Shown here: piece after piece, positions 1-8,874 of the stretch | Position numbering within the stretch: the first letter of the stretch is position 1 | How the letters are laid out: each line of letters starts with the position of its first letter | Virus record (IMG/VR): IMGVR_UViG_3300022198_001111 | Coordinates: 1 to 22,261 of that record | Origin: a virus | Length of the DNA stretch: 22,261 bases | Strand: one strand, 5' to 3' | Made by a program: the position numbers and the translations under genes | The notes under the pieces: generated by a model | Database searches by the model: none | Told to the model about the DNA's origin: nothing | What the model saw: the letters and a program-made list of their open reading frames with translations, nothing else

Positions 1-1495
1 AAACAGTGCCGTTTTTGACTACATCCCCGTAATACCAAAAATCAACGCAAAACTCTCCAGTAAAATTAAATGAAGAATCACTAGGGCCAGTTAAATAATC
101 GCCCGTACCATCAAAATAAATCGACCCCCCGTTGTCGGCAGTCGAATAACCACCGTGGGTATAGGGGCTGAAGGGTTCTGTTTTGGTATTACCGTTTACA
201 GTAATAGAGTGACCGTTTGTCGAACCATCCGCTATGTAAGGCAAGTGACAAGTGAGTAGCGTTGTATTAGTAATTGCTGTTAGTGGTTCAGTGGGAACTG
301 TGATAGATGTTTGAGTAGCATCGTATGCTGAACTGCCTTTTAGCCATCTCATATCACGTATATAACCATCTATTTCATAGCCTCCGCTATCATAACGTCC
401 GATAGAGGCATTAGAAAAATCTGCGCTATAAGATGAAGTTGTAGATCCTGTTCTTGTGCCGTTATGGAATATACTCAAAGTAGTTCCAGTTCTACAAAGA
501 ACTACATGATTCCAAGCTTTTGCAGTAGCTGGCCCATTTCCACTACTACCTACTTTGACTGCTCCACCGCTTCCTGCTCCATAATACCAATAAGTTGATT
601 CGTTATAAATTAATTGATTATGACTATCATTTGGAGCAGAGATAGCAATATGTAAACCTCCTGTTCCACCTGTCAATGATTCGGGCCACCACCAAAACTC
701 TATACTAAAATCGCCCGTTCCAAATTCATGTTCTGTAGAGTCTGCTACTTTTAGATAATCCCCGTTCCCATCAAAATAAGTCGAATACCCGCCGTGCCTA
801 TAGGGACTAAACGCGCCCTGCGTTACGTTACCGTTAGCGGTAATCGTATGGCTGTTTGTGGAGGAGTCAATAAACGAATTGTTAACTGCATTGTTCGCGC
901 CGACAGAAGTGATAAGCGCTGTGGTGTAGTTGCTATTTGCGACTGAGAATTGAAGCTCAAAGCTGCTAACGGCTGTAGCAATGTTTACCCCATCGCTCGC
1001 CCTAAACGTCAGGCTAAACGTACCCGCGTTAGCCGTATTGGTTGATGGCGTGATAGTAAAGACATTGGTGTTAGCTCCAGTACCCTGCGTGACAGTCGCC
1101 ACGTTTCCAGAGGTATCTGACGCGATGCTATAAGTGATCGGGATGCCTTCGGGGTCGGTCGCCGTTATAGTGACTGTAGTAGCGGTGCCGTCACTTGCTA
1201 AAGTATAAGACGACGCCGCACCGCTAATGCTAGGCGTGGTGTTAATCAGCGCAATGTTATACCAGCCGGTGCCATTCCAGATGTACAGGCGGTTATTGCC
1301 CGATACATACGCTTGGTCGCCGGTTGATGCACCAGATAGGGGCAGATCATCAATCGTTGCATATACCGTGGTGCTTGAACCTGATGGTGCTGCACCATCC
1401 CAGCGCGTCTTCGAGCTGCTGTAGGTGTAAGTAATCCCGTTCGAGGTTACCGTGTCGCCGTCAGAAGGTGAGTTGGGAAAGTTATACGCGGCCAT
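1..1495 (-). CDS. Multi-LamG tail adhesin (partial, 3' end outside window)
   Basis: This is a probable phage tail adhesin that binds glycans on the host surface. I read 498 codons from the ATG at 1495 to the window edge without a stop. Residues 1 to 35 form the short module shared with the other fibres (NFPNSPSDGD and a tyrosine/tryptophan pair). Residues about 90 to 190 form a cadherin/Ig-like domain (ATDPEGIPITYS). LamG (concanavalin A-like) domains begin near residues 240 and 460, each opening with YFDGxGDY. The second is cut by the window edge. AGAGGG lies 7 bases before the ATG, and the start is 3 bases after the stop of the upstream gene. It is a paralogue of that gene and lacks about 37 N-terminal residues found there. 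Receptor binding is inferred from the family; the ligand is unknown. Confidence 0.85.
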   Translation of the reverse strand, partial: MAAYNFPNSPSDGDTVTSNGITYTYSSSKTRWDGAAPSGSSTTVYATIDDLPLSGASTGDQAYVSGNNRLYIWNGTGWYNIALINTTPSISGAASSYTLASDGTATTVTITATDPEGIPITYSIASDTSGNVATVTQGTGANTNVFTITPSTNTANAGTFSLTFRASDGVNIATAVSSFELQFSVANSNYTTALITSVGANNAVNNSFIDSSTNSHTITANGNVTQGAFSPYRHGGYSTYFDGNGDYLKVADSTEHEFGTGDFSIEFWWWPESLTGGTGGLHIAISAPNDSHNQLIYNESTYWYYGAGSGGAVKVGSSGNGPATAKAWNHVVLCRTGTTLSIFHNGTRTGSTTSSYSADFSNASIGRYDSGGYEIDGYIRDMRWLKGSSAYDATQTSITVPTEPLTAITNTTLLTCHLPYIADGSTNGHSITVNGNTKTEPFSPYTHGGYSTADNGGSIYFDGTGDYLTGPSDSSFNFTGEFCVDFWYYGDVVKNGTV

Positions 1496-1498
1496 CTG

Positions 1499-4108
1499 TT
1501 AACCCTCTAAAGCGGCTGATGGTGGTGTGAAGTTGGATGTGTAGCGGGCTAGGCCTTTGGTGATTCGGAAGTCAGATATGTGGCCGCTAAAACATTGCGC
1601 GTTAGCCGCCCCATAAATACTGCCTATTCCAAAATAAGTTCCAGTATAGTCTGCAGTATCCGCTACAGATAAAGCCTGAGTACCATCGATGTAAAGCTTT
1701 GTAACAGAGGACGCTCTCACGACTGCAAAGTGATACCATTGATTTAAAGCGTAATTTACTGTGGATTCATGATAAGCGTTTGCAGCATATATTGCCCATT
1801 CAGAATCTGCAGGGGCTGCGTTAGTGATTTGAAGTGCCACAGAGTTAGTATTTGTTGCAGGAAAATTACTTGTTCCTTGTTGAAATAACCCTTTATCACC
1901 ACTGGCAGTAATATATGCCCAACCTTCTATAGTAAAATCTCCTGTTCGGAATGCAAAAAGATTTGAAGGAGACATTGTTAAATAATCCCCCGTCCCATCA
2001 AAATACATAGACGAAGTAAGGTATTTGCTCTGAGTAGTAGACGACTTAACGTCGCCGTTTAACGTGATTGTTTTGACAGACTGTGACTTATCAATAATGC
2101 CAGCGTCTGTTCCGTTAAGGAGCAGAGAGGTGTTGGTGATAGCCGTTAGGGGGGCTGTGGGTGGGGTAAAAGCGGACGTGTAGACGGCGGTGCCTTTTAC
2201 AATACGCACATCCGCAAGACTACCCTTAAACACCTGAGAGGGGGCGGCGCTGTCGTATCCTATGCCTATCCCCGTCGTCGCGTTTTGATTGTAACTGTTA
2301 GACGCTGTGCGTTGTGAAACACCATCAACGTAACAAGTAACAGTTCCACTTTCTCGAACAATAGCAATGTGAGTCCACTTATTAATTGCGTAATTAATAG
2401 ACGAAGTGAAAACGGCGCTAGTACCAAACACGAAGTCAAATGTGCCGTTTGAAAGCATCACGATTGACCAAGACCCCGCGCCTGTTCCTAGAACGCAAAG
2501 AGGGCGCATTGTTGCGTAGTGATCGGGGTTCCACCACCATTCAAAAGTAAAATCACCAGTCCCCATTTGCAACGACGCATCGTTTGCAACTACTGCGTAA
2601 TCACCAGAGCCATCAAAGTAAATCGACCCGCCATGGTCGGCAGTCGAATAACCAGCGTGTTCGTAGGGGCTAAATGCCTCTGTCTTGGTGTTGCCATTTA
2701 CAGTAATAGAGTGAGCGTTAGTTGAGCCGTCTGCTATGTAAGGCAAATGGCACGTTAGTAGTTTTGTGTTCGTAACCGCTGTGAGACGCTCTGTTGGGCC
2801 ACCGGAGGCTGGCGTTATAGCAGTTCCGCTTACACAGCGAAAATCTGTAAGGTATCCTTGAAATTCATATTGAGCACCTCCGAGACCAAGGTGGTAAGCG
2901 CTTGTCCCAATTAATGGTCGGTTTGTTACTGCCGTGTAATTAGTAGATGATGTAAATGTTGAAGTTTCTACAACACCATCAATATATAATTTAATTATGT
3001 TGCTCGAATCTCTAACAAAGCAAATGTGAACCCACTGGCTTATTGGTAAAGCTGAAGCAGACAGTAAAGCCCATTGTGTATTTGAATATATGCCAATTTT
3101 GTCAGTAGAATCGATCCAAACAGCAATATAGCTTCCATTAGTATTGCTAGGTCGCCAATCGATAATTGATTGAGATGCGCCAACGCTACTAGGTAAATAC
3201 ACCCAAAATTCGAGTGTAAATTCTGATGCGCCTAAAGCAACGCTACTAAGTGACAAATAATCACCAGCCCCATCAAAATAAGTCGAATACCCACCGTGTC
3301 GATACGGACTAAACGTATTCTGCGTTACGTTGCCGCTAGCAGTAATCGTGTGGTTATTAGTAGAAGAATCAGTAAACGAATTATTGACTGCATTATTAGC
3401 ACCCACAGAAGTAATTAGCGCTGTGGTGTAGTTACTGTTTTCAACTGAAAACTGAAGCGTAAACGTAGAGCTTGCCGACGCGACGTTTGTGCCATCGCTA
3501 GCTCTAAATACCAGAGTGAAACTGCCTGCGTTCGCAGTGTTTGTGCTCGGCGTGATCGTCCACTGGTTAGTGTTCGATCCAGTGCCTTGGGTAACCGTCG
3601 CAACATTCCCTGACGTATCGCTGACAATACTGTAGGTGAGCGGGACGCCTTCTGGGTCAGTGGCAGTAACCGTGACTGTGGTGGCCGTGCCATCTGTAGC
3701 AAGGGTGTAAGTAGCGCTAACGCCGCTGATAGAAGGCGTAGTGTTCACTATGCTGATTGAGTACCAACCCGAATCACTAAAGATATAGAGCTTGTCCGTA
3801 GAATCGACTAGCGCCATCGACCCCTCTGCCACTCCACTCAAAGGCAGATCGTTGATTGTTGCGTAAACCGTGACGCCAGCAGATGAATCAGCCGGTTGCC
3901 ACTCGCTATCCGTGCTATTCCACTGCAACACTTGCCCGTTGGTCGGCGCTACTGTGGACGTATCTACGTCTGTGAGCGCGTCGATGGCCTGAGTCAAACC
4001 TTGGGGGCTGTCAGACCAAACGCCTTGCGTAGAGTCATAGGCGTAAGTAATCCCGCTGACCGTAATCGTCTGGCCGTTAGTGGGGTTGCTTGGGAAATTA
4101 ACTGCCAT
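1499..4108 (-). CDS. Tail adhesin with Ig-like domain and three LamG domains
   Basis: This is a probable virion surface adhesin of 869 residues. In order it has a short fibre module (NFPSNPTNGQ, residues 3 to 30), an LTDVDTSTVAPTNGQVLQW module (about 45 to 75), a YATINDLP linker (about 83), a cadherin/Ig-like domain (about 123 to 224), and three LamG-type lectin domains starting near 276, 497 and 699. Each LamG domain opens with YFDGxGDY and has a W- and F-rich core. AAGGAA lies 7 bases before the ATG. It follows a tail-assembly chaperone gene and precedes a partial paralogue. It has no signal peptide or membrane segment, as expected for a virion protein. LamG domains bind carbohydrates or proteins in known families; the target here is unknown. 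The C-terminus ends on the third lectin (FTPPSAALEG), so the tip is probably a lectin rather than a cleaved chaperone. Confidence 0.88.
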   Translation of the reverse strand: MAVNFPSNPTNGQTITVSGITYAYDSTQGVWSDSPQGLTQAIDALTDVDTSTVAPTNGQVLQWNSTDSEWQPADSSAGVTVYATINDLPLSGVAEGSMALVDSTDKLYIFSDSGWYSISIVNTTPSISGVSATYTLATDGTATTVTVTATDPEGVPLTYSIVSDTSGNVATVTQGTGSNTNQWTITPSTNTANAGSFTLVFRASDGTNVASASSTFTLQFSVENSNYTTALITSVGANNAVNNSFTDSSTNNHTITASGNVTQNTFSPYRHGGYSTYFDGAGDYLSLSSVALGASEFTLEFWVYLPSSVGASQSIIDWRPSNTNGSYIAVWIDSTDKIGIYSNTQWALLSASALPISQWVHICFVRDSSNIIKLYIDGVVETSTFTSSTNYTAVTNRPLIGTSAYHLGLGGAQYEFQGYLTDFRCVSGTAITPASGGPTERLTAVTNTKLLTCHLPYIADGSTNAHSITVNGNTKTEAFSPYEHAGYSTADHGGSIYFDGSGDYAVVANDASLQMGTGDFTFEWWWNPDHYATMRPLCVLGTGAGSWSIVMLSNGTFDFVFGTSAVFTSSINYAINKWTHIAIVRESGTVTCYVDGVSQRTASNSYNQNATTGIGIGYDSAAPSQVFKGSLADVRIVKGTAVYTSAFTPPTAPLTAITNTSLLLNGTDAGIIDKSQSVKTITLNGDVKSSTTQSKYLTSSMYFDGTGDYLTMSPSNLFAFRTGDFTIEGWAYITASGDKGLFQQGTSNFPATNTNSVALQITNAAPADSEWAIYAANAYHESTVNYALNQWYHFAVVRASSVTKLYIDGTQALSVADTADYTGTYFGIGSIYGAANAQCFSGHISDFRITKGLARYTSNFTPPSAALEG

Positions 4109-4119
4109 CTTCTAATTCC

Positions 4120-4410
4120 TTACGCCGGTTGCGTAGGCCAACTAACATTGTTCGGGAAGCCTTCCTGACTTGTTATGTCGCGCAAACTCTGCCTATAGGT
4201 GGCCCACTCTGTCTTTTTTTCAGAAGACAAAGGCGCATCAGCGACCTGTGTCCAATCAGATACCAGCAGCAAGCCATCTCGCTCAGCACGTACCTGTATA
4301 GCAACAAGAGCGTCTCCGTCAGGAAGATCGGCGGGAGGGCCGAATAACGACAGGTATTCTGCTTCAGAAATCTCATGCTGGCCGTTAGAGTCGGCGTATC
4401 TGTACGTCAT
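4120..4410 (-). CDS. Tail fibre assembly chaperone (Phage_tail_APC-like)
   Basis: This is a 96-residue acidic protein with the signature of phage tail assembly chaperones: RAERDGLLLVSDWTQVADAP, then a helix with WATYRQSLRDI, then GFPNNVSWP at the end. Such proteins help fibres trimerise and are usually encoded next to the fibre they serve. This one sits between the 936-residue fibre and the LamG adhesins, so either could be the client. The ATG at 4410 forms an ATGA overlap with the stop of the fibre gene and has GGTGGA about 4 bases upstream. A GTG at 4419 would add three residues, but ATGA coupling is the rule in this genome, so I prefer 4410. Confidence 0.85.
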   Translation of the reverse strand: MTYRYADSNGQHEISEAEYLSLFGPPADLPDGDALVAIQVRAERDGLLLVSDWTQVADAPLSSEKKTEWATYRQSLRDITSQEGFPNNVSWPTQPA

Positions 4411-7217
4411 ACTTTCCACCCATACAAACCGAATTTGCCAGTTTTCATAGTTCCAGTACCTGTCCTAATAATTGACACGCCGGTAATCTGATTGCTGCCA
4501 GATACAGTCCCAGAATAAAGTCCGGTGAGCATGTTGTTAATCGCGTACACCGTCCCACTAGTTGTAGTACTTGCAGAGCGACCATGGTAAAAAGCTCGTT
4601 TTCCTGTTGTAGCCCGGTTGTTATCAACAACTATGAAAATCTCGAACCAAAACGGATACTCCGCATTTGTAGTATATGTGGCGTACAACGGCCAGTTATT
4701 TGCTCCATTGTCGGCTACAGTGGAAAACGTATCTGTACCGTACCGGTTAGCTTTATTAGTGTAGGAATACTCCGACGCTGATTGAGTAACCCCGTTCCTA
4801 CGAACACGCAGATACGCAGCCCCATCGTAATCATGATCAAACTCCCCTATAACTTTGTAGATGTTATAGGCGGCAGTCATACCATCAAGGTTAACAGCGG
4901 TTGCACCGGTGCTATCTGTTGTTGCTGTTGCCAGTTCTGTCCATTTTCCGCCGCCTCCAGCTGACGGAGTTGTAGCATCCCACCGACTGTTTGCGTTGTC
5001 CCAAGTTAATACCTGACCATCAGTCGGCGTCATGGTATTTACGTCGGACAGGTTCTCTATGCTCTGACCAGCAATGTTCGTCAGATAAGACTGGAGATCA
5101 GAAATTTGAGACTCTGTGATAGACAACGCCGCTTGATGTTGCGTTACAGAAGATTGTGTGATGTTTGCGTCCGGTACGTTTGCCCAAGTTACAGCCGCTG
5201 TAAGATTGTTCGTCTCCGATGTTAGGTACGAGGACAAATCAGGCGGCGTGTAACTAAACGCTCCAGTGGTGTTGTTATAGCTAAGCGCTGCCGTGCCTGC
5301 AGCGTTAGTAGTAACAGAGAGATCAGTAAGCGCGATACCGGCGGAGTCTGCCGCGTTAACCCACGCAGTACCGTTGTATTTTAAAACTTGGCCGTTAGAC
5401 GCCGTTGTAATTGTTACGTCTGAAACATCATTCAAAGCCACACTAGTTAAATATGTGCCAAAGTCACTAATCTGACTTTCCGTAATAGATAATGCAGCTT
5501 GGTGAGCAGTCACATCACTTTGAGTAACAGTGTAGCTCGTTAAATAACTAGACAGGTCTGGGGGCGTGTAACTAAATGCGCCTGTCGAACTGTTGTAGCT
5601 AAGCGCGGCGGTCCCTACCGCGTTAGTCGTAACAGAAAGATCGGTCAACGCAATACCGCTAGAATCCGTAGCGTTAACCCATGCAGTACCGTTGTATTTC
5701 AAAACTTGGCCGTTAGCCGCAGTTGTAATAGTTACATCTGAAACGTCATTTAACGCCACACTAGTTAAATATGTGCCAAGGTCACTGATTTGCGATTCAG
5801 TAATCGACAACGCGGCTTGATGTTGAGTGACACTGGTCTGCGTGATATTCGCATCCGGTACGTCCGCCCAAGTCACAGCTGCAGTTAAATTGTTTGTCTC
5901 TGTATAACTGGTCAAATAGCTAGACAAATCGGGCGGCGTGTAAGTAAACACGCCGGTAGTGTTGTTGTAAGTAACCGACCCATCACCGCTAGCAGTCCCT
6001 TCTGCGCCGACAGAAAGATCAGTTAGAGCTATACCACTGCTGCCGCCACCTGTCGGGTTAGCCTGAACCCACTGGCTTGAATCGCCGTCGTTGTAATAGA
6101 TGTAGGTCTTTAGCGCATTAGGGTCAAACCACATGTGCCCCGTGCTAGGATTACTTGGCGCGGTTTCTTGAACAGCAACAAGTGGGTTTGATGGGCCAGA
6201 GGGGTTCGCCTTGACCCACTGCGAAGATGTGCCGTCGTCGTAGTAAACATAAAGGCGCAGAGTAGTTGTGTCGTACCAGAGGTCACCATCTGACGGAGAG
6301 CTTGGTGCTGTATCTGCGGTAGTTACCGACGCCCCGCCTCCTCCAGACTGTGCCACCCAATCGTAATCTGTGCCATTCCAACTCAAAACTTCGTTGGTGG
6401 CGGCTGTGCTAGTGTTGAGGTGCGTGTCTACACTGGCATCGTTATAACTGCCGCCTGATGGCGAGGCAGCGTCCCACCGGCTGTTTGCGTTATCCCATGT
6501 AAGCACTTGCCCGTCTGTTGGGGTCATAGTGTTTACATCAGACAAGTCCTCAATACTCTGACCTGAAATGCTTGTCAGGTAGCCCGACAAGTCAGGCGGC
6601 GTATAAGTGAACACTCCGGTGCTGTTGCTGTATGCAAGCGCCGCTGTACCTGCGGTGTTGGTCGTAACAGAAATGTCAGTCAGCGCAATGCCGCCGCTCG
6701 CTGTAGCAGGCTCCCACTTACTGTTCGCATTGTCCCAAGTTAGAACCTGCCCATCAGTCGGCGCTGTCGTCGATGTATCTACATCACTAAGATCATCAAT
6801 TTGTGCAGCCCTGGGGATGATAATTTCCCCTGCCATCGCAGCATGAGCAGAACAGTTGTAATAAAGCTTAGACGGCGCGTCCTGCGGAACAACAAACTTA
6901 ATCGTCCCGCTAGCAGTTCCGTTGTTGGTTACACCATCGGAGTAAGCGTTGCCCGTGCCGGTGCCAGATACCGTCTTGATGTAGAACGGATGGCCGGTGG
7001 CGTTTACTGCAAACTCGTAAGTCTTACCCCTGTGCAGGTAAAGCGTCGGGTTACTGTCGCTATCGGTGCCGAATCCGTTGAAGACATAAGCACTAGAAGC
7101 ATTGTTGGTAACAGCGAAGTATCCGTCAGATGTGGCAACGTCCCACACGCCGAGTGTGGCGTTATAGATAAATCCGTTGAAAAGGTCGCCGCCTGATGGG
7201 TTGTCTGGGAAATTCAT
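4407..7217 (-). CDS. Long tail fibre with N-terminal cupredoxin-like domain
   Basis: This is a 936-residue tail fibre. Residues 1 to 30 are the fibre module also found in the LamG adhesins (NFPDNPSGGD). Residues about 35 to 137 look like a cupredoxin, with GHPFYIKT giving H76 and YYNCSAHAAMAG giving C122, H125 and M128. The shaft has repeated LSDVxTxxPTDGQVLTWDNA modules, two SSQWV modules (APSSPSDGDLWYD) and a duplicated 96-codon unit. The C-terminal domain from about 760 (GKWTELATATT to YGWKV) is unique in the window and is probably the receptor-binding or trimerisation tip. GGAG lies 7 bases before the ATG, which overlaps the previous stop as TAATG. The fibre role is well supported by composition and context. 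Copper binding is an inference from ligand residues only. Confidence 0.88.
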   Translation of the reverse strand: MNFPDNPSGGDLFNGFIYNATLGVWDVATSDGYFAVTNNASSAYVFNGFGTDSDSNPTLYLHRGKTYEFAVNATGHPFYIKTVSGTGTGNAYSDGVTNNGTASGTIKFVVPQDAPSKLYYNCSAHAAMAGEIIIPRAAQIDDLSDVDTSTTAPTDGQVLTWDNANSKWEPATASGGIALTDISVTTNTAGTAALAYSNSTGVFTYTPPDLSGYLTSISGQSIEDLSDVNTMTPTDGQVLTWDNANSRWDAASPSGGSYNDASVDTHLNTSTAATNEVLSWNGTDYDWVAQSGGGGASVTTADTAPSSPSDGDLWYDTTTLRLYVYYDDGTSSQWVKANPSGPSNPLVAVQETAPSNPSTGHMWFDPNALKTYIYYNDGDSSQWVQANPTGGGSSGIALTDLSVGAEGTASGDGSVTYNNTTGVFTYTPPDLSSYLTSYTETNNLTAAVTWADVPDANITQTSVTQHQAALSITESQISDLGTYLTSVALNDVSDVTITTAANGQVLKYNGTAWVNATDSSGIALTDLSVTTNAVGTAALSYNSSTGAFSYTPPDLSSYLTSYTVTQSDVTAHQAALSITESQISDFGTYLTSVALNDVSDVTITTASNGQVLKYNGTAWVNAADSAGIALTDLSVTTNAAGTAALSYNNTTGAFSYTPPDLSSYLTSETNNLTAAVTWANVPDANITQSSVTQHQAALSITESQISDLQSYLTNIAGQSIENLSDVNTMTPTDGQVLTWDNANSRWDATTPSAGGGGKWTELATATTDSTGATAVNLDGMTAAYNIYKVIGEFDHDYDGAAYLRVRRNGVTQSASEYSYTNKANRYGTDTFSTVADNGANNWPLYATYTTNAEYPFWFEIFIVVDNNRATTGKRAFYHGRSASTTTSGTVYAINNMLTGLYSGTVSGSNQITGVSIIRTGTGTMKTGKFGLYGWKV
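4957..5090 (-). repeat. Dispersed shaft module QVLTWDNANSRWD, distal copy
   Basis: This segment encodes SIENLSDVNTMTPTDG and QVLTWDNANSRWD. It matches the proximal copy at about 6450 to 6582 almost residue for residue, with many silent differences. The two copies bracket the repetitive shaft. Confidence 0.75.
5217..5504 (-). repeat. Fibre shaft repeat, copy B (288 bp)
   Basis: This is the second full copy of a 96-codon unit in the 936-residue fibre, running from HQAALSITES to PDLSSYLTS. Protein identity with copy A at 5535 to 5822 is very high, while the DNA differs mainly at third codon positions. The two copies have exactly the same length. Confidence 0.85.
5535..5822 (-). repeat. Fibre shaft repeat, copy A (288 bp)
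   Basis: This is the first full copy of the 96-codon unit (HQAALSITES to PDLSSYLTS). A third, partial copy begins at 5138 and diverges after the ISDL codons near 5093. Copies A and C are preceded by a further 16-codon stretch (NNLTAAVTWA, VPDANITQ) that is missing before copy B, which suggests unequal recombination during fibre growth or shrinkage. Confidence 0.85.
6450..6582 (-). repeat. Dispersed shaft module QVLTWDNANSRWD, proximal copy
   Basis: This is the proximal partner of the module at about 4957 to 5090. A weaker relative with DVDTSTTAPTDG lies closer to the cupredoxin-like domain near 6715 to 6800, and related modules occur in the LamG adhesin. Confidence 0.75.
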
Positions 7218-7990
7218 TAAACGTCTCCGACCTTGACGGCTGTTACTTCAGCAGAAATATCGCCCGTTCTGTTAAATTGGTCATAACTAGTCCTGATTTG
7301 ATAAGAGCTGCTAACAGACACGAGCCGCACCCAAGCGCCTTCTAAAGGCTCATCTGCCGAGTTATCACGAATTGTTGCCGTAGCTGCAAAACCCCCGAAC
7401 CATAAGTCGTATGGGTTCTGCGTCACCCACCCATTTCCGTCATTAGTCTCCAGTCGTACTGAGGCGCTGGGGACACCACCAGACGCCGTGCTTTTTCCGA
7501 TAGACATCCTTACATCAACAAGCCACGTTCCAGCCGTAAGGGTATAAGTCCCAAACGCAACACCATGAACAAAGCTGTTTTTATTAGAAGTTAGCCAATC
7601 AGAAGACGTGCTCTCGTAACTCAAAGAGTTGCCCGCCGTGACAGATGTTAGGTTTACATCCTGCATTGCGGCTAAAGAGCGGACGCCAGACTCTCCAGTT
7701 GATGTCCCCACCGCAATCCAATCGCCCGAAGCTGAGTCGTACACGTAGGTCACTCCGTTACTTTCGGAGAACCAAGCGTGGCCGTCGATTGGGTTCGAGG
7801 GTTTTGTGGACGATGTCTCAACAAGCGCATCTACGGTAAATGTTGCCCACGACCCGTTTTGTCGGATGTATTGGGAGCCATCTGAAGTCGCATCTTCTAA
7901 CTTATCTGTGTTTAGGTTAGAGAAATTGGCGTCCATCTCAGTGGCGGTGAGCGGCGACCCTTTGCCTGATACTGTGACAACCGTAGCCAT
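7217..7990 (-). CDS. Short tail fibre protein, paralogue 1
   Basis: This is a 257-residue probable tail fibre or appendage protein. The N-terminus carries a SGKGSPLTATEMDANFSNL adaptor segment also present in the gene upstream. It is followed by YIRQNGSWATF, a module with PSNPIDGHAWF and a YVYDSASGDW element, an AMQDVNLTSV segment, and a C-terminal beta-rich domain from about residue 140. That domain contains GTYTLTAGTWLVDVRMSIG, which is reminiscent of C1q/TNF-like jelly rolls. AGGGG lies 7 bases before the ATG, and the start overlaps the previous stop as TAATG. The shared N-terminus suggests that both paralogues dock on the same virion site while their C-terminal heads differ. The jelly-roll assignment is tentative. 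Confidence 0.8.
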   Translation of the reverse strand: MATVVTVSGKGSPLTATEMDANFSNLNTDKLEDATSDGSQYIRQNGSWATFTVDALVETSSTKPSNPIDGHAWFSESNGVTYVYDSASGDWIAVGTSTGESGVRSLAAMQDVNLTSVTAGNSLSYESTSSDWLTSNKNSFVHGVAFGTYTLTAGTWLVDVRMSIGKSTASGGVPSASVRLETNDGNGWVTQNPYDLWFGGFAATATIRDNSADEPLEGAWVRLVSVSSSYQIRTSYDQFNRTGDISAEVTAVKVGDV

Positions 7991-8874
7991 TAGGTCGCCC
8001 CTAATCGCTGAAACAGCACATGAACATCTAACTTGTCACTTGAGGCAGCGTTTGAGTCTGATTTGGCTCTAAGCCTTATTTTATGTGTGCTAGTGCTAGT
8101 TACATCAAAAACAAAAGAAAGCGTGGCTGTTGAATTATGCTCCGCCGTGTTAGAAGAGCTAGTCTGATGCGATCTATCAGCAAAGCTATTCCCAGTGAGG
8201 TTCGAGTAGGTCGAGCCGTCTGTAGTTTTTTCTATACTTCCTCCAAGAATTGCTGCAGTCCGATTTGAAGAGGAAGTGCCGTAAAAAGAAAAGTCAGCTC
8301 TAACAAGCCAATGACCAGTAGAAGGGAAGGTAAAAACACCAGATGTCTGCGTCATTGCGCCGTTAATATTTGTCTGCCGCGCCCAACCTGAACTAACAAC
8401 GGAGTTTGTGCTCGCGCCGAAGGTCAGCGTTCCGCTTTCCCACTGCTCAATAACAGGCGCTTCATTAATCCACTTAGAAGTTCCGCTGTCGTAAACGAGG
8501 ATGTCTTTATCTTGAACAGACGTGATTGCTACGTCACTCATCTCAGACAGATTGCTAAAACCACCTAGCGAACCAGTCGGTGCACCAGTAGCCACCCATT
8601 GCGAAGACGTTCCGTCGTCGTAATACACATACGTGACGCCATTGCTTTCTGAATACCAGACATCGCCATCAGAGGGAGAAGACGGCGCTGTGCTGGACGT
8701 GACAACCGTCGCCGCAGCAGACACCGCTGCCCATGCGCCAGATTGACGGGCGTACTGATTCCCGTCAGATGGAGCGTCCTCGATCTTGTCTGTATTTAGG
8801 TTAGTGAAATTAGAGTCCACCTCTGTGTTAGTCAGAGGTGAACCCTTTCCACTACGAGTGACAATGGTTGCCAT
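7990..8874 (-). CDS. Short tail fibre protein, paralogue 2 (C1q-like head)
   Basis: This is a 294-residue probable tail fibre protein. The N-terminal SGKGSPLTNTEVDSNFTNL matches the neighbouring gene. It is followed by YARQSGAWAAV, an APSSPSDGDVWYSESNG module with YYDDGTSSQWV (also in the 936-residue fibre) and a MSDVAITSVQDKDIL segment. The C-terminal head, from about residue 145, has SGVFTFPSTGHWLVRADF and ends in VHVLFQRLG, a pattern like C1q-type beta sandwiches. AGGAA lies 7 bases before the ATG. The gap to the preceding gene is 14 bases. The role as fibre is inferred from module sharing and position; the head fold is tentative. Confidence 0.8.
   Translation of the reverse strand: MATIVTRSGKGSPLTNTEVDSNFTNLNTDKIEDAPSDGNQYARQSGAWAAVSAAATVVTSSTAPSSPSDGDVWYSESNGVTYVYYDDGTSSQWVATGAPTGSLGGFSNLSEMSDVAITSVQDKDILVYDSGTSKWINEAPVIEQWESGTLTFGASTNSVVSSGWARQTNINGAMTQTSGVFTFPSTGHWLVRADFSFYGTSSSNRTAAILGGSIEKTTDGSTYSNLTGNSFADRSHQTSSSNTAEHNSTATLSFVFDVTSTSTHKIRLRAKSDSNAASSDKLDVHVLFQRLGAT

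Follow-up and report, generated by a model that had tools for sequence, protein, structure and literature searches.

Recent exchange of domains is established for the receptor-binding proteins of phages (Smug et al., 2023; PMC10684548), and variable host-recognition modules are established in environmental phages (Mizuno, 2014; PMC3909814; Bellas, 2020; PMC7468147). Here, we describe two adjacent genes, A and B, located at the left end of the 22,261-bp virus record IMGVR_UViG_3300022198_001111 (the whole stretch analysed, hereafter the window), which encode adhesins with LamG domains. The two proteins are built on a common scaffold into which dissimilar lectin cores are set. The explanation that we favour, with a probability of about 0.85 for the explanation as a whole, is that the dissimilar cores of A and B result from horizontal exchange of single lectin cores between phages; this core swapping most likely keeps pace with changing bacterial surfaces.

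A common scaffold around dissimilar lectin cores

The preliminary description of this DNA proposed that A and B align collinearly with a constant offset. This offset is real, because two direct repeats both lie 2502 nucleotides (nt) apart: 755–961/3257–3463 (207 nt, 81% identity) and 96–295/2598–2797 (200 nt, 79%). The protein pattern common to the two genes is far beyond chance (tblastn, E 8e-144), and both belong to the family PF13385 (Laminin_G_3; curated cut-off of 27.6 bits), with 51.8 bits for A and 180.6 bits in three stretches for B. Since A stops in its second LamG domain, about 38 amino acids (aa) of which precede the contig end, and B has three such domains, the window allows a full comparison of the first pair of cores only.

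The N-terminal anchors of B and A share 44% aa identity, and their Ig-like domains 79% (65% at the nt level), with a proportion of synonymous differences (pS) of 0.83, i.e., saturated synonymous sites. Conserved block 1 (lk1) is closer than the Ig-like domain at the DNA level (89% aa, 82% nt, pS 0.58), and conserved block 2 (lk2) shares 76% aa overall and more than 90% in its central 30 aa. The near identity initially claimed for the Ig-like domain does not hold. Identity between A and B falls abruptly at the YFDG motif, and the first cores, expected to be little alike, indeed share 30% aa and 43% nt, both being still LamG domains. The distance from YFDG to YFDG is 220 aa in both genes, as had been seen; this equality looks coincidental, the spacing being variable in other genes. 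B carries in addition an insert of about 38 aa between its N-terminal anchor and its Ig-like domain.

A comparison of nonsynonymous and synonymous substitution rates (dN/dS) between the first cores of A and B, which had been proposed as a check, was dropped: synonymous and nonsynonymous sites alike approach saturation (pS 0.74; proportion of nonsynonymous differences, pN, 0.52), making the ratio uninformative. Neither of these two cores is a recent copy of the other, and their relatives sit in other phages; these relationships do not demonstrate that A and B exchanged cores directly in this genome.

Core histories are discordant with backbone histories

Two scans of IMG/VR provided 122 usable genes with three LamG domains. 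Exactly three YFDG anchors are present in 118 of the 137 full-length open reading frames (ORFs) carrying the motif. Related contigs are designated below by L numbers; those carrying orthologues of the window genes together with neighbouring genes in common are L002, L003/L007, L009, L030 and L036.

Spearman coefficients between core identity and Ig-like domain identity are –0.05, 0.15 and 0.15 (7372 pairs, 122 genes). When Ig-like domains are at least 80% identical, the cores are less than 45% identical in 94%, 95% and 88% of pairs for slots 1–3, respectively. Core identities within a slot are bimodal, lying mostly between 0.2 and 0.5 with a second group at 0.7 or above. Core 2 of gene B, for instance, is 92% identical in aa to that of L009 with a pS of 0.11, compared with a pS of 0.62 in the Ig-like domain, and cores 1 and 3 of the same two genes are 24% and 39% identical. 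The converse is seen in L004, where backbone segments are near-identical to those of the window (pS 0.10 for the insert, 0.16 for the next segment) and core 1 is only 34% identical, and in L024 (backbone segment pS 0.13, core 1 40%). In 48 of 53 same-slot mosaic pairs (cores at least 80% identical), pS is lower in the core than in the Ig-like domain (medians of 0.25 vs 0.65; Wilcoxon p 1.4e-9): the common cores are younger than their backbones. They are also under purifying selection, with a median dN/dS of 0.15 (range 0.02–0.64; 63 pairs at least 70% identical), so diversifying selection did not make this pattern.

The phylogenies disagree in the same manner. In the tree of the anchor side (pre-Ig plus Ig-like domain), A-type and B-type genes are apart with support of 100/100, whereas a clade of A genes is rejected for core 1 (approximately unbiased test, AU, p 0.0001) and for block 1 (AU p 0.002, from 63 columns giving mostly unresolved trees). 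The agreement between trees of blocks and cores that would have spoken against separate histories was therefore not observed.

The preliminary description offered either cassette exchange or strong diversifying selection as the explanation. In the second case, A and B would be paralogues of old origin, with a scaffold that stayed conserved and cores that diverged without moving, and the first cores of A and B, two LamG domains with 30% identity in a conserved scaffold, would fit such a history. The purifying dN/dS values, the bimodal rather than graded core identities and the youth of the cores relative to their backbones nevertheless make it highly unlikely. Moreover, core 1 of gene A is about 75% identical in aa to the slot-1 cores of L015, L021 and L027, yet these phages have only LamG and fibre-repeat sequence in common with the window over the stretches compared. 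The discordant histories favour cassette exchange instead, as do the positions of the breakpoints.

Junctions and slots

Breakpoints sought in relatives, as had been suggested, were found at the YFDG blocks. Changepoint fits place most junctions at conserved blocks, and 95 of 107 deduplicated ends of high-identity DNA blocks in the LamG region fall in conserved blocks and 12 in cores, for 33% expected by length (p 3e-33; 106 vs 14 in an earlier set). At the left junction of core 2 between gene B of the window and its counterpart in L009, about half of the bases match until about 10 aa before YFDG, followed by near-identity. In a meta-profile of 42 pairs, identity on the left side rises sharply at YFDG (about 0.7 before, about 0.9 after); on the right side it falls gradually through the following block, to about 0.4 just past the next YFDG, with exits spread over about 60 aa.

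Same-slot mosaic pairs outnumber cross-slot pairs by 54:1 at 80% identity or more, 41:7 at 60–80% and 85:42 at 45–60%; recent exchanges therefore keep the slot, and changes of slot are rare or old. Across slots, core 2 of gene B is 68% identical in aa to a slot-3 core of L025, and core 3 of gene B is 55–57% identical to slot-1 cores of L010 and of the A gene of L009. In the top decile of random pairs, block DNA is 68–74% identical between blocks of the same slot and 59% across slots. Block homology could thus explain the slot preference, selection for compatible interfaces being an alternative cause.

An entry junction at a single motif would also be produced if the blocks were dedicated recombination sites, used by a site-specific recombinase, an invertible cassette or a diversity-generating retroelement. 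The Phe and Asp codons of YFDG in the 122 genes could be read in the same way, being more uniform than gene-wide (TTT 93 vs 78%, GAT 93 vs 73%), but the Tyr codon is unbiased and common ancestry may explain this uniformity. We detected no reverse transcriptase (RVT_1, PF00078), as a diversity-generating retroelement would have, in 20 related records, many of them fragments, the genome of the window itself being partial. Likewise, no serine resolvase/invertase (PF00239) was found in these 20 records, the search not extending to tyrosine recombinases, and positions 1–8000 of the window contain no inverted repeats of the kind that would flank an invertible tail-fibre cassette (Gin/Cin type). The cores are whole different alleles and not point-mutated variable regions, and the wide spread of exits does not resemble the use of a fixed site. 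We consider dedicated sites very unlikely.

Predicted structure of the conserved blocks

The full-length AlphaFold2 (AF2) model of the gene B protein (mean predicted local distance difference test, pLDDT, 81.6) contains ordered strands in the conserved blocks, and a model of the fragment composed of block 1, core 1 and block 2 gives a pLDDT of 93–97 for block 2. This fragment model, a prediction and not a solved structure, falls within the LamG/pentraxin-like beta-sandwich fold, with matches to PAPP-A, pentraxin and laminin/neurexin LG domains (Z 15.7–21.7 over 157–201 residues; root-mean-square deviation of 2.4–3.2). Fold matches include many unrelated ConA-like proteins and are uninformative on function. 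Because the fragment matches cover residues 271–483 or so of the full-length protein, YFDG would start LamG domain 1 and block 2 would end it. The conserved blocks are thus predicted to be terminal beta-strands of this fold, and the term 'linker' first applied to them is a misnomer.

The pLDDT of block 1 is about 58–80 in the fragment, which is without core 3, and 91–94 in the full model, whose matches of the other topology extend from residue 225 to residue 866. Block 1 may therefore complete core 3, so that the three LamG domains would close end to end; this closure is read from AF2 and from the range limits of the alignments. Co-inheritance is an ambiguous test of such packing: core 1 tracks block 2 (partial correlation 0.41) and core 3 tracks block 3 (0.23), and no co-inheritance of core 3 with block 1 was found, which lends no support to the predicted N-to-C closure.

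Proposed mechanism of core exchange

In the explanation that we favour, an adhesin gene of this type is a fixed scaffold (N-terminal anchor, Ig-like domain and strand blocks) holding three LamG/pentraxin-like lectin cores in fixed slots. Recombination enters sharply at the YFDG that opens a LamG domain and leaves at some point along the conserved strands forming the tail of this domain, at the latest at the next YFDG. One core is replaced in frame, with the anchor, the Ig-like domain, the closing strands and the domain interfaces kept, and the cores, each mostly confined to one slot, thereby spread across phage groups. The sequences themselves show the mosaic structure, the youth of the cassettes relative to their backbones, the junctions, the preference of recent exchanges for their slot and the purifying selection acting on the cores, and the fold and the role of the blocks are predicted. 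The cores would bind glycans of the host surface, so that exchange would alter adsorption specificity.

The enzyme involved would belong to a recombination system of general type, from the phage or the host, that can use short homology. Exact stretches between non-identical blocks of the same slot have a median of 11–14 nt (95th percentile at most 28 nt, maximum 55 nt). Stretches of 11–14 nt are short for RecA-type recombination and compatible with lambda-Red-like recombinases, with exchange between closer alleles, or with illegitimate events filtered for in-frame, folding proteins; our data favour none of these routes.

A further-reaching version, which we regard as possible and rather doubtful, is a widespread, slot-locked system in which the blocks have two roles. 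They would close the structure, with block 1 completing core 3 and the three LamG domains latched N-to-C into one unit, and they would guide recombination by homology specific to each position. Unrelated phages would then draw three lectins per adhesin from slot-specific common pools, and the blocks would be kept partly because they allow exchange.

Several points weigh against the exchange of single cores between phages. No isolate pair showing it was found, relatives of Synechococcus phage S-SKS1 giving nothing above 60% identity except S-SKS1 itself. For most pairs, base-level placement of a breakpoint inside a block is not possible, and the accumulation of block ends at block edges is partly due to similarity running through conserved sequence until an unrelated core is reached. 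The 54 and 53 mosaic pairs are not fully independent, several genes being recurrent. Finally, all mosaics are metagenome assemblies and might be chimeras joined at conserved blocks. Inside core 2 of gene A, the ends of the window (positions 1–5) and of L001, a separate contig, are at most 4 nt apart, as at an assembly fork, and several other 3′-truncated relatives end 26–49 aa past YFDG, as if assemblies forked at the junction of block and core. However, chimeric assembly is unlikely because the exact stretches between different alleles are so short; in addition, L001 repeats the whole combination of A and B cores with 7 mismatches in 4.4 kb, and the common cores carry synonymous divergence with low dN/dS. 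Taking these observations together, we judge chimeras very unlikely and retain horizontal exchange of single cores.

Features of genes A and B and their neighbourhood

Coordinates are collected in Table 1. The LamG domains of A and B, their tail-gene neighbourhood and their hypervariability suggest that they are receptor-binding proteins. Gene A is 65–68% identical in aa to the second adhesin of L002, L009 and L024, and the N-terminal anchor of gene B, highly conserved in the contigs listed in the table, is 83% identical in L005. The window and L001 differ at only seven positions in 4420 nt, and all seven fall within 46 nt (1409–1454) of the N-terminal anchor of gene A; this stretch resembles a small gene-conversion tract. 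In L003 (10774–11358) and L007 (11211–11795), the position of gene A is occupied by a gene encoding 194 aa, the first 36 of which are 100% identical to A, with no Pfam match, which points to a second, larger-scale exchange behind the N-terminal anchor.

Table 1. Features of the two adhesin genes and the adjoining gene (window coordinates).
Feature	Position	Strand	Support
Gene A, LamG adhesin; 498 codons from the 5′ end, continues beyond the window	2..1495	-	open ORF; PF13385
Gene A N-terminal anchor (aa 1–35)	1391..1495	-	97–100% aa to the A-type genes of L002/L009/L024/L057; 44% to the B anchor
Gene A Ig-like domain (aa 85–183)	947..1243	-	79% aa to B, pS 0.83
Gene A conserved block 1 (ALITSVGANN...FSPYRHGGYSTYFDGNGDYL)	755..943	-	89% aa / 82% nt to B; direct repeat D1
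Gene A LamG core 1, variable cassette	284..754	-	30% aa to B core 1
Gene A conserved block 2 (LTCHLPYIADGSTN...YFDGTGDY)	95..283	-	76% aa to B; direct repeat D2
Gene B, complete adhesin, 869 aa: N-terminal anchor, Ig-like domain, three LamG	1499..4108	-	AF2 mean pLDDT 81.6
Gene B N-terminal anchor (aa 1–48)	3965..4108	-	96–100% aa in L036, L030, L002, L009, L003, L004
Gene B Ig-like domain (aa 122–220)	3449..3745	-	83–96% aa among B orthologues
Gene B conserved block 1 (lk1); strands, predicted to be ordered, that would pack against core 3	3257..3445	-	AF2 pLDDT; structural matches
Gene B LamG core 1, variable cassette	2786..3256	-	IMG/VR scan: allele in L001 only; next match 30%
Gene B conserved block 2 (lk2)	2597..2785	-	C-terminal strands of LamG domain 1, ends at domain 2 YFDG; fragment model
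Gene B LamG core 2, shared cassette	2171..2596	-	96% aa in L002, 92% aa in L009 (pS 0.08, 0.11)
Gene B conserved block 3 (lk3)	1982..2170	-	
Gene B LamG core 3	1502..1981	-	87% aa to L002 slot 3
Putative tail-fibre assembly chaperone adjoining adhesins	4120..4419	-	phrog_4912 E 8e-22

The main genes of the window, all on the minus strand, encode virion proteins, a holin, an M15-type endolysin, tail-fibre proteins and the chaperone-like protein, in addition to the two adhesins. A fibre gene of 936 aa (4407–7217) contains repeated modules (ISDLGTYLTSVALNDVSDVT..., LSDVDTSTTAPTDGQVLTWDNANSKWEPA), and the insert specific to gene B (3875–3964) is made of the same module. A small virion protein is a distant relative (24–29% aa) of those of Bcep22-like podoviruses, whose genomes are about 60 kb. 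L024, a related contig of 61 kb, carries exactly six LamG domains, all within two neighbouring genes; its ends overlap with only 94% identity over 160 nt, and circularity is therefore not claimed. A and B are tandem adhesins, with a putative receptor-binding role, of an uncultured tailed phage whose genome is probably about 60 kb long. No DNA near-identical to the window was present in the phage collection, and a search of prophages for a host gave only remote matches, in metagenome-assembled genomes of Gracilibacteria, Omnitrophota and Lentisphaeria, which do not inform on the host.

Comparison with known systems

The exchangeable unit of host recognition can be closely defined in these phages: one lectin core, entered at YFDG and left in the tail strands, in three independent slots per gene and often in two or more genes per phage. 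If the cores set adsorption specificity, combinations drawn from a common pool could yield many receptor specificities, and core alleles could mark the type of host surface in metagenomes. 'Hypervariable' need not imply here a fast point evolution.

LamG/ConA-like baseplate or adhesin proteins of other phages (phrog_24074, phrog_3545, phrog_13163; Synechococcus phage S-SKS1; phage DSL-LC04) resemble A and B in their tandem LamG domains and in homologous sequence (31–38% aa), but they occur in other genome contexts and core exchange is known here for the family of the window alone. Metaviromic islands and flexible modules (PMC3909814; PMC7468147) are comparable in that host-recognition genes differ between similar phages and homologous variants shuffle independently; they were recognized from read recruitment, mostly at the level of genes or domains, whereas the present cassettes are smaller than a gene and have junctions at one motif.

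A close parallel is the recent exchange of tail-fibre domains described by Smug et al. (2023; PMC10684548), with fragments of high identity common to otherwise different proteins, in a paper that makes no mention of LamG/ConA domains. The mosaicism defined there (a fragment at least 70–90% identical in otherwise dissimilar proteins) is found between gene B and L009, whose second cores are 92% identical; it is in this case an exchange within one family, the scaffold being still homologous. In their tail-fibre example, the C-terminal part is swapped behind a conserved N-terminus, whereas the exchange here concerns single internal cores, in three fixed slots that conserved sequence flanks on either side, and shows a slot preference. 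Within the open-access literature, to which our survey was confined, we found no description of an internal, slot-specific exchange of LamG cassettes. Core swapping as such is known, and its three internal, slot-specific positions per gene represent an unusually orderly form of it.

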